Below are positions 17,528 to 31,118 of a stretch of 64,000 nucleotides of DNA, in pieces. The notes beneath the pieces are model-generated. The model had not been told where the DNA came from and did no database searches. It saw only the letters and a program-made list of their open reading frames with translations. Position 1 is the first letter of the stretch. Each line of letters begins with the position of its first letter. This stretch comes from Halomonas elongata DSM 2581. GTDB taxonomy: Bacteria > Pseudomonadota > Gammaproteobacteria > Pseudomonadales > Halomonadaceae. The stretch lies in contig NC_014532.2 of NCBI RefSeq assembly GCF_000196875.2, forward strand, positions 124,001-188,000, read 5' to 3'. Made by a program: the position numbers and the translations under genes.

Positions 17528-18412
17528 ATGCTGGATATCAAGTTCTATGTGCTGATCGATGCCATCGCGACGCACGGTACTGTCCATGAGGCGGCTGCGG
17601 CGATCGGCGTGACTCAGCCGGCGGCGACGCATCGTATCCGCGAGATGGAACGTCGGCTGGGTGTGTCCCTGTTCCTGCGGGAGGGGCGCCGTCTGGTGCT
17701 GACGGCATCCGGCGAGCGCCTGGTGGCTGCCGCCAGGGATGTGCTGCCGAAGTTGCGCAATGCGGAAATCGAAGCCTGGCAGCTGGCGCGTCATGGCGAG
17801 CCGCCCATACGCCTGGGTATCGGCCCCTACGATACGCTCTCCCGGATCGTGCCCCATCTCTATGATCACCAGTACGGCGACATCGACCTGGTGAGTCTGC
17901 CGATGCCCGAGATGACCGGCGCCTTGCTGGCCAGGCGGGTCGACATGATTCCCATGATCGAGGTGCCCGTGCAACGGGGCCTCGACTATCGTGAACTGTT
18001 CGAAGAGCCGCTGATGGCAGTGATGCCGCCGTCTCACCCCTATGCCGACAGCGATGCGGTACCACCCGAGGTGTTCGATCGTGAGCGTCATTTCACTTAT
18101 AGCGTGGCGCCGGAAGCAGGGCATGAGTTCGAACACTTCTTTCAGCCCGCCGGCATCTATCCCTCGCACATGGTGCAGGTCGAGTCCGTGAACCTGATTC
18201 TCGACCTGGTGGCGGCCGGCAAGGGGGTGAGCATCCTGTCTCGCTGGGCGGTTCGTGATGCCGCCCGTTCGGGGCGTGTGGTCATGCGCCCCCTGGCCGG
18301 CGAGTTGCCCCGCATTCCCTGGTATCTGGCTTTCGCCGATGAGCCTCGCGTCGCCGAGGTGGCCATTCCTCTGGCGTTGCTGTTGCGCGAGCAATATCGG
18401 CAGACCACGTGA
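17528..18412 (+). CDS. LysR-family transcriptional regulator
   Basis: A 294-residue LysR-type regulator. The N-terminal winged helix-turn-helix is at about residues 5-60 (GTVHEAAAAIGVTQPAATHRIREMERRLGVSLF), followed by the effector-binding domain, ending in a short basic tail. The start at 17528 is used because homology begins at MLDIKFYVL. The gene is codirectional with and 136 bases before the oxygenase, M24 and binding-protein genes, so it probably controls them and senses the compound they handle. AT-rich inverted repeats lie between the regulator and the first enzyme gene. Confidence 0.9.
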   Translation: MLDIKFYVLIDAIATHGTVHEAAAAIGVTQPAATHRIREMERRLGVSLFLREGRRLVLTASGERLVAAARDVLPKLRNAEIEAWQLARHGEPPIRLGIGPYDTLSRIVPHLYDHQYGDIDLVSLPMPEMTGALLARRVDMIPMIEVPVQRGLDYRELFEEPLMAVMPPSHPYADSDAVPPEVFDRERHFTYSVAPEAGHEFEHFFQPAGIYPSHMVQVESVNLILDLVAAGKGVSILSRWAVRDAARSGRVVMRPLAGELPRIPWYLAFADEPRVAEVAIPLALLLREQYRQTT

Positions 18413-18428
18413 GCCACGTTTTCAACTG

Positions 18429-18443
18429 ATTGAATCAATTGAT
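18429..18443 (+). promoter_or_regulatory. Candidate LysR operator (overlapping palindromes)
   Basis: ATTGAATCAAT (18429-18439) and ATCAATTGAT (18434-18443) are overlapping perfect palindromes in an AT-rich patch 106-120 bases before the oxygenase start. Palindromes of this kind with a T-N11-A core are common LysR sites. The assignment is by position only. Confidence 0.4.
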
Positions 18444-18548
18444 AAAAAAGTCATGACATCGGCGACGGAATTCTGATTGGAGTTGGCGAGAGGGCCTGCC
18501 TAGCCTAGGCCGCAGTACTTATCCCGCCACCCAAGAGGAGACGAGTCG

Positions 18549-19445
18549 ATGCCAACTTCTGCCCTTCGCGACGAACGCTCAGCGACCCCCCAAGCGCCTG
18601 GTACCCCTTCCCTGGCGCGGCTGGTCGACCTGCAGCAGTACCCGATCGACCGGCAGGAAAGCGACGCCTATCGTCATGCGGTTGAACAGGTGCGAGCCCA
18701 ACTGCGACAGGACGGCTGCGCACTGTTGTCCCGGTTCATTCGTGACGATGTCGTCGAGACGCTGCGCCAGGAAAGTGAGGCCCTGGCCCCTCTGGCCTAC
18801 TATTCCGACAACAACGTCAATCCGTATGTCACCCAGGACGATCCCAGCTTGCCCGAGGATCACCCGGTGCGTTGCTTCCAGCACTACACCAATGGGTTCG
18901 TGGCCAAGGACCTGATTCCCGAGGACGCCATCGTCAAGACGCTCTATCGCGATCCGGCGTTTCAGCGGTTCATCGCTGACTGTCTCGAGGAACCGGTCAT
19001 CTATGAGTTCGCCGATCCCATCGCCGGCCTGGTAATCAATGTCATGCCTGACGATACCGAGCTGCCCTGGCACTTCGACACCAATGAATTCATCGTCAGC
19101 CTGATGACGCGACGGCCTCATAGCGGCGGGGAGTTCCAGTATGCGCCCAACATCCGCCGCCCCGGCGAGGAGAATTTCGCCGCTGTGCAGCGCATCCTGG
19201 AAGGCGATCACACCGAGGTCGAGTCGCTGACGCTCAATACCGGCGACCTGCAGCTCTTCAAGGGGCGCTATTCGATGCACCGTGTGGCCTCCGCCCAGGG
19301 ACAGCGTTTGTGCACCCTGCTGGGTTACGCCAAGACCCCGAACATGATGGGCAGCCTGGAGCACACCGAAAAGATCTATGGTCGCGTGACCCAGGCCCAC
19401 ATCGACGCTCACAACCAGCATCGCCACGACAATCTCATGGGGTAG
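18549..19445 (+). CDS. Fe(II)/2-oxoglutarate-dependent oxygenase, BesD/HalD-like group
   Basis: A 298-residue non-haem iron oxygenase. The iron triad is readable as H175-F-D177 (WHFDTNEF) and H244 (YSMHRV); an Arg-rich segment follows for 2-oxoglutarate. GGEFQYAPNIRRPGEENF and LNTGDLQLFKGRYSMHRV recall the group that includes the free amino-acid halogenases BesD/HalD. Halogenases lack the Asp, while this protein keeps it, so a hydroxylase or C-N cleaving role is more likely than chlorination. It is not EctD. GAGGAG lies upstream of the start. It is followed at 72 bases by an M24-fold enzyme and then by a betaine-type binding protein, which suggests an amino acid or quaternary amine as substrate. 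Confidence 0.75.
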   Translation: MPTSALRDERSATPQAPGTPSLARLVDLQQYPIDRQESDAYRHAVEQVRAQLRQDGCALLSRFIRDDVVETLRQESEALAPLAYYSDNNVNPYVTQDDPSLPEDHPVRCFQHYTNGFVAKDLIPEDAIVKTLYRDPAFQRFIADCLEEPVIYEFADPIAGLVINVMPDDTELPWHFDTNEFIVSLMTRRPHSGGEFQYAPNIRRPGEENFAAVQRILEGDHTEVESLTLNTGDLQLFKGRYSMHRVASAQGQRLCTLLGYAKTPNMMGSLEHTEKIYGRVTQAHIDAHNQHRHDNLMG

Positions 19446-19517
19446 GCGCGACGAGCCGAGGCTCTCCATGCCTGACCTGTCCGCCTGCCCGCTGACCAAC
19501 GAGAGAGTGCAGTTTTC

Positions 19518-20786
19518 ATGAGCCAGATCGTGGCACTGGCCGACGTCCCTCGAGACGGTCGGTCTTACGTTGACGGTGATTTTCGTCGCCAATCCATCGA
19601 TGACGAGCTGCTGTCGCGGGTCGAGCGCTATCGTCTCGACCGCCTGCGTCAGCAGATGCGCCATCATGAGATGGATGCGCTCATCCTGTTCGACCCGATC
19701 AATATTCGATATGCCTGCGGCGTTCGCAACATGCAGGTCTATTCGCAGCGCAATCCCGCGCGCTATCTCTACGTGGCCGCTGACGGTCCGGTAGTGCTCT
19801 ACGAGTTCAGTGCCTGCATGCACCTGGCGAAGGATGCCCGGCTGCTGGATGAAGTTCATCCGGCGAGGGCCGTCATGCCGCAGTACAGCGGGCCTCGTTG
19901 CCCGCAACACACGGCGGCCTTCGTCGATGACATGCGCTCCCTGTTCGCACGCTCGGCTACGCAGGGCAAACGGCTGGGCATCGAGTCGGCTCCTACCGCG
20001 GCCGTATCCGCCCTTGGCGAGGCGGGATTCGAGCTGATCGATGCCGCCGTCGCCGTGGAAGGCGCCAAGTCCATCAAGAGCCTCGATGAGCTGAGCCTGA
20101 TCCACCGTTCGGTGACACTGACGGAATCCGCCATGGCGCACATGGAAGCGGCCCTGAGGCCGGGCATGTCCGAAAACGAGCTATGGTCCATTTTCAACCA
20201 GCATGTGCTGGCCACGGGGGGCGAATATGCCGAAACCCGGCTGCTGGCCTCGGGGGCACGCACCAATCCCTGGTTCCAGGAGTGTTCCGACAAGATCATC
20301 GCGCCTGGTGAACTCGTGGCCTTCGACACCGACATCGTCGGCTGCTTCGGCTATTACACCGACTTTTCAAGAACCTTCCATGTCCCCGGATGTGGTGGTC
20401 CCACCCAGGAGCAGAAGCGGCTCTATCGGATGGCGGCCGATCAACTGGAAAGCAATATCGCCCTGCTGGCACCCGGCATGAGCTTTCGCGAGTATTCACG
20501 CCGCGCCTGGCCGATTCCCCGGGGATATCGCGAGAACCGCTACCTGGACATCGTCCATGGTTGCGGGATGACCGGTGAATGGCCGCTGATCGCCCATGAC
20601 ATGGATTGGGACGATGTCGGCTACGACGGTGACATCGAACCCGGCATGACCCTGTGCGTGGAAGCCTATATCGGGCATCGCGATGGCCGCGAAGGGGTCA
20701 AGCTGGAGGAACAGGTGTTGATTACCGAACGGGGGATAGATCGTCTGTCGACGTATGGCTATGACGATGAGTTGCTGGGTTCTTGA
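19518..20786 (+). CDS. M24-fold metalloenzyme, DddP-like
   Basis: A 422-residue protein of the peptidase M24 (pita-bread) fold with five predicted metal ligands: D272, D282, H347, E382 and E397. Their spacing (10, 65, 35, 15) matches the ligands I recall for the DMSP lyase DddP (D297, D307, H371, E406, E421) to within one residue. RENRYLDIVHGCGM and LEEQVLITERG are also DddP-like. However, the position of the proposed DddP catalytic Asp377 is Gly353 here, so DMSP lyase activity is doubtful. The M24 fold also includes ectoine hydrolase (DoeA) and creatinase, so cleavage of an osmolyte C-N or C-S bond is plausible. It lies in the LysR, oxygenase and binding-protein cluster. Confidence 0.75.
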   Translation: MSQIVALADVPRDGRSYVDGDFRRQSIDDELLSRVERYRLDRLRQQMRHHEMDALILFDPINIRYACGVRNMQVYSQRNPARYLYVAADGPVVLYEFSACMHLAKDARLLDEVHPARAVMPQYSGPRCPQHTAAFVDDMRSLFARSATQGKRLGIESAPTAAVSALGEAGFELIDAAVAVEGAKSIKSLDELSLIHRSVTLTESAMAHMEAALRPGMSENELWSIFNQHVLATGGEYAETRLLASGARTNPWFQECSDKIIAPGELVAFDTDIVGCFGYYTDFSRTFHVPGCGGPTQEQKRLYRMAADQLESNIALLAPGMSFREYSRRAWPIPRGYRENRYLDIVHGCGMTGEWPLIAHDMDWDDVGYDGDIEPGMTLCVEAYIGHRDGREGVKLEEQVLITERGIDRLSTYGYDDELLGS

Positions 20787-20815
20787 CCCTTTTCCATGAC
20801 AATCTAAGGAGACCC

Positions 20816-21685
20816 ATGAAATCGATTACTTCTCTTCTCGTTGCACTTGGCGCCCTGGGGGTTGCCACTACGGCATCGGCCGACGAGACATTGACCATCG
20901 GCACCAACAACTGGTCGGAGAATATTGCCGTCTCTCACCTATGGCAGCAATTGCTGGAGGAGCGGGGATACCGCGTCGAGCTGACCACGACCGGCAAGAG
21001 CATCATCTTCAGCGCGCTGGCCCAGCGCGATATCGACATATCGCTGGAAGTCTGGCTGCCCAATGGTGATGCCCAATACCTGGAGCCCTATCAGGATCGT
21101 ATCGATGTCCATGACGCCTGGTATCACGGCGCCCAGGACGAGCTGGTGGTGCCGGCCTATCTCTCGGATATCGACACCATGGAAGACCTGAAGGCCAATG
21201 CGTCACGCTTCGAGTACCAGGGAGAGCCGACAATCATGGGCATCGAGTCGGGTTCCGCCATCGCGGGGGAAACGGAAACCGCCATCGAGCGCTACGAGCT
21301 GCCGTTTCGCCAGTTGAATAGCTCGTCACCTGCCATGCTGGCCTCGCTCGAGGAGGCGTATCGCAAGGAAGAACCCATCGCGGTCACGCTCTGGCAGCCG
21401 CATTGGGCCTATGCGCAATATGACCTGAAGGCCATCGAGGATCCCGAGGAGGCCTATGGCGGCGGCGACGACATCAAATGGATGTCCACGGCCGGGTTCG
21501 CCGAAGAGCACCCCGAAATAACGGATGTCCTCGATGGCTGGTACATGAGCCATGGCCAGCTATCGGATTTGATGTTGACCATCGAGGACGTCGGCAGCCC
21601 AGAAGAGGGCGTCCGTCGCTGGATCGCTGACCACCCGGCGCTCATCGAGAAGTGGCTGGGCGATTTCGAGGACGCCGATGCATGA
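20816..21685 (+). CDS. Glycine betaine/choline-type ABC substrate-binding protein (ProX/OpuAC-like)
   Basis: A periplasmic binding protein of the OpuAC/ProX family, 289 residues. The signal peptide MKSITSLLVALGALGVATTASA is followed by LTIGTNNWSENIAVSHLWQQLLEERGY, the usual start of the family. Aromatic residues in the ligand region (SLEVWLPN, TLWQPHWAYAQYDLK) could form the cation-pi box for a quaternary ammonium group. The start at 20816 follows AAGGAG at 20806-20811. No permease or ATPase gene is next to it, so it must use a transporter encoded elsewhere or act as a sensor partner. It probably binds the substrate of the two upstream enzymes. Confidence 0.85.
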   Translation: MKSITSLLVALGALGVATTASADETLTIGTNNWSENIAVSHLWQQLLEERGYRVELTTTGKSIIFSALAQRDIDISLEVWLPNGDAQYLEPYQDRIDVHDAWYHGAQDELVVPAYLSDIDTMEDLKANASRFEYQGEPTIMGIESGSAIAGETETAIERYELPFRQLNSSSPAMLASLEEAYRKEEPIAVTLWQPHWAYAQYDLKAIEDPEEAYGGGDDIKWMSTAGFAEEHPEITDVLDGWYMSHGQLSDLMLTIEDVGSPEEGVRRWIADHPALIEKWLGDFEDADA

Positions 21686-29300: not shown

Positions 29301-31118
29301 TCAGCCGCGTGCGAGCGGTTGGGTGCGCTTCTCGAGCCAGGCCAGGGCGTCGCCCTCGAGCTTGGGCGCGAGGCGCTCACGCACTTCGGCGTGGTAGGCG
29401 TCGAGCCAGTCGATCTCGCTTGCGTCGAGCAGGGAAGGCTCGATGCAGCGGGTGTCGATGGGGCACAGCGTCAGGGTCTCGAAACGCAGGAAGTCGCCGA
29501 ACTCGCTCTCGGCGGCGGGACGGTTGGCCACCAGGTTCTCGATACGAATGCCCCACTTGCCGGGGCGATACACACCGGGCTCGATGGAGGTGATCATGCC
29601 GGGCTGCATGGCGGTATGCGCTGCCACCGGGGCGTGCCAGGCGATGACCTGCGGGCCTTCGTGGACGTTGAGGAAATAGCCCACGCCATGGCCGGTACCG
29701 TGGCCGTAGTCGCGTCCGCTGGTCCACAGCGGTGCGCGGGCGATGGCATCGAGCTGCGCCGAGGGAATGCCGCGCGGGAAGTGCGCCCGGGACAGCGCGA
29801 TGGTGCCCTTGAGCACCAGGGTGTAGTCATCGCGATGCGCGGCGTCGATCTCGCCCACCGGGACCACGCGGGTGATGTCGGTGGTACCGCCCGGATACTG
29901 GCCGCCGGAGTCGATCAGCAGCAGGCCGTTGCCTTCGATGGTGGCATGGGCCTCCGGCGTGGCGTGGTAGTGCGGCAGGGCGCCGTTGGCATTGAAGGCG
30001 GCGATGGTGGAGAAGCTGCGGCTGACGAAGCCCGGGCGTGCCGCGCGGGCGGCGGTCAGCTTGTCGTCGACGGTCAGCTCGGTGACGGTCTCGCCCCGGG
30101 CCAGGGCGTCTTCCAGCCAGGCGAAGAACTCGCAGAGTGCCGCGCCGTCTTCCTCCATGGCGTGGCGAACGTGCTCCAGGTCGCTGTCGCTCTTGCGGCC
30201 CTTGGCCAGGGTGCTGGGCTGGAAGGCCTCGACCAGGGTGGCGCCGTCCGGCAGGGCCTGGCGGGTGCCGAGGGTGAGGCGTGCCGGGTCGACCAGCACG
30301 CGTGACGTCTCGGGCAACTCGGCCAGCCGTGATGCCCAGTCGGCATAGGGCGCGACCTGGATGCCGTCGCCGGCGAGCGATTCGCGCAGGGTGTCGTCGA
30401 GCTTGCCGGGGGCGACGAACAGGGTGGCCGTCTCGCGACCGATCAACAGATGGGCGAGGAAGACCGGATTGAAATCCACATCGTCGCCGCGCAGCTGGGT
30501 CAGCCAGGCGATGTCGTCGAGGGTCGAGATCGGGTGCCAGTCGGCCTCGTGCTCGGCCATGGCCTCGCGCACCCGGGCCAGACGCTCGGCGCGGCTCTCG
30601 TCCAGGTAGGTGCTGTCGTGGGCGTAGAGCGGCGCCTTGGGCAGCGAGGGGCGATCCGGCCAGATGCTGTCGAGCAGGTCCAGATCGCCGCGCAGTCGAA
30701 TGCCGGCCGGCGACAGCGCCTCTTCCAGGCGCCGGGCGCTGGCCAGGGTGACGACATTGGCGTCGAAGCCCAGGGTAGCGCCGGATTCGAGATTTTCGGC
30801 CAGCCATTGCATGGGCGCATCGCCCTGGCCGGGGTGCAGCTTCATCAGCTCGATGCCGCTGCCGGCCAGTTGCTCCTCGGCCTGAACCCAGTAGCGGCTG
30901 TCGACCCAGACGCCGGCGGCATGCCGGGTGACCACCAGGGTGCCCACCGAGCCGTCGAAGCCGGACAGCCAGGCCCGGCCGGCCCAATGCTCCGGCAGGT
31001 ACTCGGAATTGTGCGGATCGGAGGAGGGCAGCCACCAGGCGTCAATGTCGTGCTCGCGCATGGCATCGCGCAGGGCGGCCAGGCGCTCTGCCGGGGAAGT
31101 AGGGGCTTCACGGGACAT
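29301..31118 (-). CDS. Xaa-Pro aminopeptidase (M24B), long three-domain form
   Basis: This is predicted to remove N-terminal residues that precede proline from peptides in the cytosol. The 605-residue protein is of the long XPNPEP1 type: two creatinase-like N-terminal domains (DAWWLPSSDPHNSEYLPEHW and VREAMAEHEADWHPISTLDDIAWLTQLR) and a C-terminal catalytic domain. The metal ligands are in LIDSGGQYPGGTTDITR (two Asp), GHGTGHGVGYFLNVHEGP (His), TSIEPGVY (Glu) and GIRIENL (Glu). Its ribosome binding site (GGAG) lies in the 3' end of the upstream peptide transporter gene; only 3 bases separate the two, so import and hydrolysis of proline-containing peptides are coupled. Confidence 0.93.
   Translation of the reverse strand: MSREAPTSPAERLAALRDAMREHDIDAWWLPSSDPHNSEYLPEHWAGRAWLSGFDGSVGTLVVTRHAAGVWVDSRYWVQAEEQLAGSGIELMKLHPGQGDAPMQWLAENLESGATLGFDANVVTLASARRLEEALSPAGIRLRGDLDLLDSIWPDRPSLPKAPLYAHDSTYLDESRAERLARVREAMAEHEADWHPISTLDDIAWLTQLRGDDVDFNPVFLAHLLIGRETATLFVAPGKLDDTLRESLAGDGIQVAPYADWASRLAELPETSRVLVDPARLTLGTRQALPDGATLVEAFQPSTLAKGRKSDSDLEHVRHAMEEDGAALCEFFAWLEDALARGETVTELTVDDKLTAARAARPGFVSRSFSTIAAFNANGALPHYHATPEAHATIEGNGLLLIDSGGQYPGGTTDITRVVPVGEIDAAHRDDYTLVLKGTIALSRAHFPRGIPSAQLDAIARAPLWTSGRDYGHGTGHGVGYFLNVHEGPQVIAWHAPVAAHTAMQPGMITSIEPGVYRPGKWGIRIENLVANRPAAESEFGDFLRFETLTLCPIDTRCIEPSLLDASEIDWLDAYHAEVRERLAPKLEGDALAWLEKRTQPLARG

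Follow-up and report, generated by a model that had tools for sequence, protein, structure and literature searches.

An oxygenase–M24 gene pair beside a betaine-type binding protein in Halomonas elongata, a candidate module for quaternary-ammonium catabolism

Closest described systems and the four-gene set

In Halomonas elongata, DoeA is an ectoine hydrolase of the M24 fold that acts in osmolyte catabolism (PMC3187862). For DddP, a second enzyme to which this locus can be compared, PMC4108388 lists the six ligands of a dinuclear metal site together with Tyr366, and describes Asp377 as invariant in DddP lyases and as the proposed, but not proven, catalytic base. On the oxygenase side, HalD/BesD radical halogenases have Gly or Ala in place of the Asp/Glu iron ligand (PMC13244439). 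Glycine betaine catabolism (GbcAB, MttB-type) resembles the present system in that its genes, too, are accompanied by this M24 family and by genes for betaine-type transport, although the oxygenase described below, which is 2-oxoglutarate-dependent, is unrelated to GbcA or MttB.

The window analysed here is a 64-kb stretch of the H. elongata DSM 2581 genome, in which a first-pass annotation had described four codirectional genes for a regulator, an oxygenase (hereafter OXY), an M24 protein (M24) and a binding protein. These genes are real, all four ORFs being intact and their Pfam domains in agreement (Table 1), with HTH_1 and LysR_substrate domains in the regulator. The set is flanked by typA upstream on the opposite strand and by glnA downstream (names by eye), and no permease or ATPase gene adjoins the binding-protein gene in the window. 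Scans of the set gave 0 promoter-like sites, 3 terminator-like sites (not above shuffled sequence) and no match to Rfam RNAs or in a PHROGs comparison. Elsewhere in the window, an ORF resembling aminopeptidase P (29301–31118, minus strand, by eye), another M24-fold gene, is apparently unrelated to the OXY–M24 set.

Table 1. Features of the four-gene set, in window coordinates
Feature	Position	Strand	Basis
LysR-family regulator	17528..18412	+	ATG at 17528, stop ends at 18412; PF00126 62 bits, PF03466 109 bits
OXY, Fe/2-oxoglutarate oxygenase, hydroxylase type (HxD)	18549..19445	+	HalD PF23169 52.3 bits, cut-off 26
OXY His175-Phe176-Asp177 (iron ligands His175 and Asp177)	19071..19079	+	82/82 sequences
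OXY His244, third iron ligand	19278..19280	+	82/82 sequences
M24, DddP-like pita-bread metalloenzyme	19518..20786	+	PF00557 107.5 bits; Creatinase_N + Peptidase_M24
M24 Gly353, at the site of DddP Asp377 (proposed base)	20574..20576	+	alignment with DddP
OpuAC-type substrate-binding protein	20816..21685	+	PF04069 218 bits, cut-off 21.2

OXY has the fold shared by BesD/HalA-like amino-acid halogenases and hydroxylases, and is of the hydroxylase type. It falls within PF23169 together with the halogenases BesD, HalA, HalB and HalD and with a BesD-like lysine hydroxylase, at 12–18% identity to these proteins; of the lysine contacts of BesD, the ones whose counterparts can be located are not conserved. 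Its iron site, which had been reported as intact (H175/D177/H244), is indeed present and invariant in the sequences compared. Since OXY has the hydroxylase Asp where halogenases have Gly, and has it in 82/82 sequences, a halogenase is ruled out and the name 'HalD/BesD family halogenase' is unsafe. Glu153, a candidate for the amine-binding Glu of BesD, proved to lie at a different position when counted from the iron His.

M24 aligns with DddP over residues 32–421 (242 bits, a match of the 33–34% identity class). The first-pass annotation was right that its metal ligands are intact but counted five, whereas there are six (D270, D272, D282, H347, E382 and E397); these and Tyr366, as listed in the DddP source, are kept in the window's M24 and in 60/60 OXY-linked M24 proteins. 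Might M24 then be a lyase of the DddP kind, acting on DMSP (or a betaine) while OXY handles a side product? The alignment and the marine genera among the hosts would fit, but we regard this as very unlikely because the proposed base Asp377 is replaced by Gly in the window and in all 60 OXY-linked M24 proteins of the 80-locus set described below (the pair on plasmid pMPC6-328K does keep Asp), and because the DddP model NF043017 gives 314 bits, about half of its equivalog cut-off of 600. In a tree of 53 M24 rows, the group of 42 that holds the OXY-linked rows is Gly in 42/42, and Asp occurs in 10 of the remaining 11. Gly-type M24 proteins are also found without OXY alongside (L180, L184, L185, L187, L188 and Sinorhizobium meliloti), which, like the Asp of the pMPC6-328K pair, speaks against a clean rule. 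DoeA shares the fold with M24, which nevertheless scores far under the cut-offs of the DoeA models (48.1 bits against 575, and 31.2 against 613). The role of M24 matches no known M24 reaction.

The binding protein resembles OpuAC and choline-binding ChoX, with Trp33, Trp80 and Trp193 or Trp197 at the positions of the OpuAC aromatic cage, and Gly142-Ile143 at the carboxylate loop. It differs in having Asp85 at the position of the carboxylate-binding His230 of OpuAC, and it has Glu35 where ChoX has Asp45; the choline-binding model TIGR03414 gives 112 bits, under its cut-off of 379. These differences may reflect a ligand that carries an additional positive or polar group, but the indication is weak, since Asp occupies the His230 place in a Borrelia protein labelled betaine/proline-binding as well.

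Conservation of the OXY–M24 pair

A scan of genome contigs confirmed 459 OXY relatives, the best 80 of which were used as a locus set (57/80 with more than 4 kb of sequence on both sides). In 60 of these 80 loci M24 directly follows OXY on the same strand (strand agreement 60/60), in ten named genera (Halomonas, Chromohalobacter, Vreelandella, Aidingimonas, Salinicola, Modicisalibacter, Terasakiispira, Castellaniella, Marinomonas and Pseudomonas) and two further MAG lineages. The typA and glnA flanks are retained in 3/80 loci only, and a LysR relative (70–94% identity) lies upstream of OXY in L021–L038 and L045. For unannotated loci, genes were called with a simple script based on ORFs or GC3, which overlooked a number of genes (OXY in L183) and in places called antisense frames.

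In a sample of relatives, OXY occurs in 21/58 genomes, and M24 is downstream of it in 20/20 loci cut with their flanks, all from the same genus (eight listed places gave no locus). Across a phylum sample, OXY was found at 26 places in 23/398 genomes, with M24 adjacent at 9/26; split by score, M24 accompanies 9/13 of the places at about 210 bits or more and 0/13 of the weaker ones. The four stronger places without M24 all belong to one family (f73; L194–L197, four genomes), where OXY stands alone; in L194 and L195 it has the same neighbour genes, and the neighbours look housekeeping in at least two loci. OXY and M24 distances correlate over 35 pairs (r 0.95; highest of 2000 permutations 0.27), a correlation dominated by three subtypes.

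The co-occurrence in relatives on which the first-pass annotation had staked its proposal is therefore what we observe, and this conservation (60/80, 20/20, 9/26) rules out a chance cluster: OXY and M24 are the core of the set and form a widespread two-enzyme module. As for the earlier statement that known osmolyte routes do not use this combination, full-text searches of the open-licence literature (most subscription journals lie outside it) found neither a paper on the gene pair nor a pathway published for the orthologues. The host range also bears on whether the set serves, in the manner of EctD, to produce or adjust a hydroxylated osmolyte when salt stress sets in, rather than serving nutrition. 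A halophilic host and an osmolyte-type binding protein would suit such a role, but the pair is also present in many Pseudomonas and in soil Caballeronia, and we give this explanation very little credence.

The 20/80 OXY loci without M24 (19 actinobacterial, one from a gammaproteobacterial MAG) have another set of partners. A gene of the carnitine-acyltransferase family (PF00755; 548 bits in L080) is present in 19/20 (L079, L080, L082 and L084–L099), that is, in 19/19 readable loci, the twentieth being cut short by the contig edge; OXY has a methyltransferase-like gene as its neighbour in 18/20, all 18 being among these 19. Neither gene occurs in the 60 M24-linked loci (0/60). Related oxygenases fall into two kinds of locus, one with M24 and the other with an acyltransferase, in most cases joined by a methyltransferase-like gene. 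The methyltransferase-like protein has no PDB match; its homologues bear the name class I SAM-dependent methyltransferase, and some sources call them carnitine O-acetyltransferase. These loci possibly encode a bacterial carnitine-like pathway, although a plain carnitine reading is weakened by sequence comparison: the acyltransferases carry Gln in 19/19 where carnitine enzymes have Arg, so a different hydroxylated amine may serve as acceptor.

Subtypes, transport genes and M24 relatives

The same genome holds a second cassette 369 kb away (C1:511660–514864), consisting of OXY, M24 and a binding protein with a divergent LysR gene. Subtype A, the window's type, has its own LysR gene and either a binding protein or a BCCT transporter, the latter in 5/80 loci (L039–L042 and L044; Salinicola endophyticus, Halomonas sp. 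S3-1-1, Halomonas sp. EAR18, Terasakiispira and Marinomonas atlantica). Subtype B comprises the second cassette, Pseudomonas, Marinomonas MED121 and, by best match, Caballeronia, in which the pair is followed by an OpuAC protein, a permease and an ATPase (a full OpuAC-type ABC system). Subtype C is common in Halomonas; among 12 loci read, from the host's family and one other, 7 have a relative of methylmalonate-semialdehyde dehydrogenase (CoA-acylating) after M24 (L102, L106, L108, L110–L112 and L200) and five do not (L104, L105, L107, L199 and L201). Two of these dehydrogenases, scanned against TIGR01722, score 675 and 649 bits (cut-off 448.5).

Overall, an OpuAC-type gene follows M24 in 21/80 loci (about 1.4 kb away in two of them). 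The link to betaine-class transport made by the first-pass annotation is thus upheld by OpuAC, BCCT and the full Caballeronia system alike, and because the transporter type swaps yet is repeatedly betaine-class, it points to a quaternary-amine substrate. Pseudomonas is the main exception, with an MFS transporter and a peptide-type ABC system in place of a betaine transporter, and OpuAC only in P. oryzihabitans (L069).

The peptide-type ABC system would suit an order of events in which M24 acts first, hydrolysing the compound in the form of an amide, ester or dipeptide, and the part set free is then the substrate of OXY. M24 has a hydrolase fold, and hydrolases are found near some loci: an amidase (L043), a nitrilase-like protein (L200, by eye), an M19 protein (L201) and, in S. 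meliloti, an isochorismatase. These vary from locus to locus, however, and by eye against its PDB matches M24 lacks the second catalytic His of M24 peptidases, so that M24 acting first seems distinctly improbable. 'Xaa-Pro peptidase', the automatic name for M24, is also unsafe.

Further neighbours are mentioned for completeness. L198 has a second, unrelated 2OG oxygenase (PF03171; 8808–9860) between M24 and the binding protein, and on the conjugative Pseudomonas plasmid pMPC6-328K (L210) the pair is followed by an FrhB-family gene. Enolase-superfamily genes (second cassette, Pseudomonas, S. meliloti and pMPC6) were rejected as a shared step, being only 24–31% alike, and the three scanned (Halomonas, S. 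meliloti and Pseudomonas) have their best matches in different families, none of them reaching the cut-off. An aldehyde dehydrogenase near the second cassette was also rejected as a shared gene (only 28–31% like that of Pseudomonas).

M24 relatives without OXY, whose neighbourhoods were read for part of the places found, have other companions. An MttB-type protein lies beside M24 in L186, in L205 (by eye) and in S. meliloti (L206 and L211), where a single run of genes (MttB-type, GlxA regulator, M24, isochorismatase and an OsmF-like ABC system) is likely to be a quaternary-amine locus. GbcA/GbcB-like proteins adjoin M24 in L189, L192 and Paraburkholderia L208, accompanied in L189 by a formaldehyde dehydrogenase that scores over its cut-off. 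All GbcA, GbcB, OsmF and trimethylamine-methyltransferase scores near these relatives are under the curated cut-offs, and neither an MttB-type nor a GbcA/GbcB-like neighbour was found in L180, L181, L184, L185 or L202–L204.

Such company raises the prospect that OXY is a 2-oxoglutarate-dependent betaine N-demethylase replacing the Rieske (GbcA-type) or cobalamin (MttB-type) enzymes, with M24 acting on the demethylated compound, the more so as the S. meliloti M24 is of the Gly type. On balance we think this unlikely: M24-less OXY loci combine a methyltransferase-like gene (18/20) with an acyltransferase (19/20), an enzyme that would need a hydroxyl, and hydroxylation of a carbon fits them better.

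A candidate catabolic module

The explanation that we favour, at roughly even chances, is that the set serves to break down a quaternary-ammonium (betaine-class) compound. The first-pass annotation had proposed the same import, hydroxylation and cleavage, a proposal that is partly supported by the present results. We infer the substrate, the order of steps, the bond cleaved and the chemistry of M24 as follows: (i) the OpuAC-type protein, going by its family, would import the compound with membrane subunits encoded elsewhere, (ii) OXY would hydroxylate a carbon of it with 2-oxoglutarate and O2, (iii) M24, which has a dinuclear metal site but no DddP Asp base, would split the hydroxylated product and (iv) the resulting aldehyde or acid would then be oxidised, a step for which subtype C offers a CoA-acylating semialdehyde dehydrogenase as the following gene. 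LysR would control the set.

What argues for such a module is the conserved pairing of OXY with M24 together with the second cassette in the genome, the swapping of transporters, the MttB-type or GbcA/GbcB-like proteins adjoining M24 relatives without OXY, and the dehydrogenase relative of subtype C. Against it stand the transporters of the Pseudomonas loci, Asp85 in the binding protein, the four stronger phylum-sample places at which OXY has no M24, and the want of a known M24 reaction that would explain what M24 does.

Betaines rank among the main sources of carbon and nitrogen in saline, algal and plant settings; near the M24 relatives examined here, the opening reactions encountered are of the Rieske and MttB types. 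It is a tentative and rather doubtful idea that a third chemistry opens quaternary amines, with a BesD-fold 2OG hydroxylase followed by an M24 lyase or hydrolase devoid of Asp377. In its boldest form, trimethyllysine or a similar trimethylammonio amino acid would be the substrate, M24 would release an aldehyde by cleaving what OXY has hydroxylated, and the actinobacterial relatives of OXY would belong to a bacterial carnitine-like pathway; we hold this version, all parts taken together, with equal reserve. If true, the widespread oxygenase–M24 pair would bring an opening chemistry and an M24 reaction that are both new.
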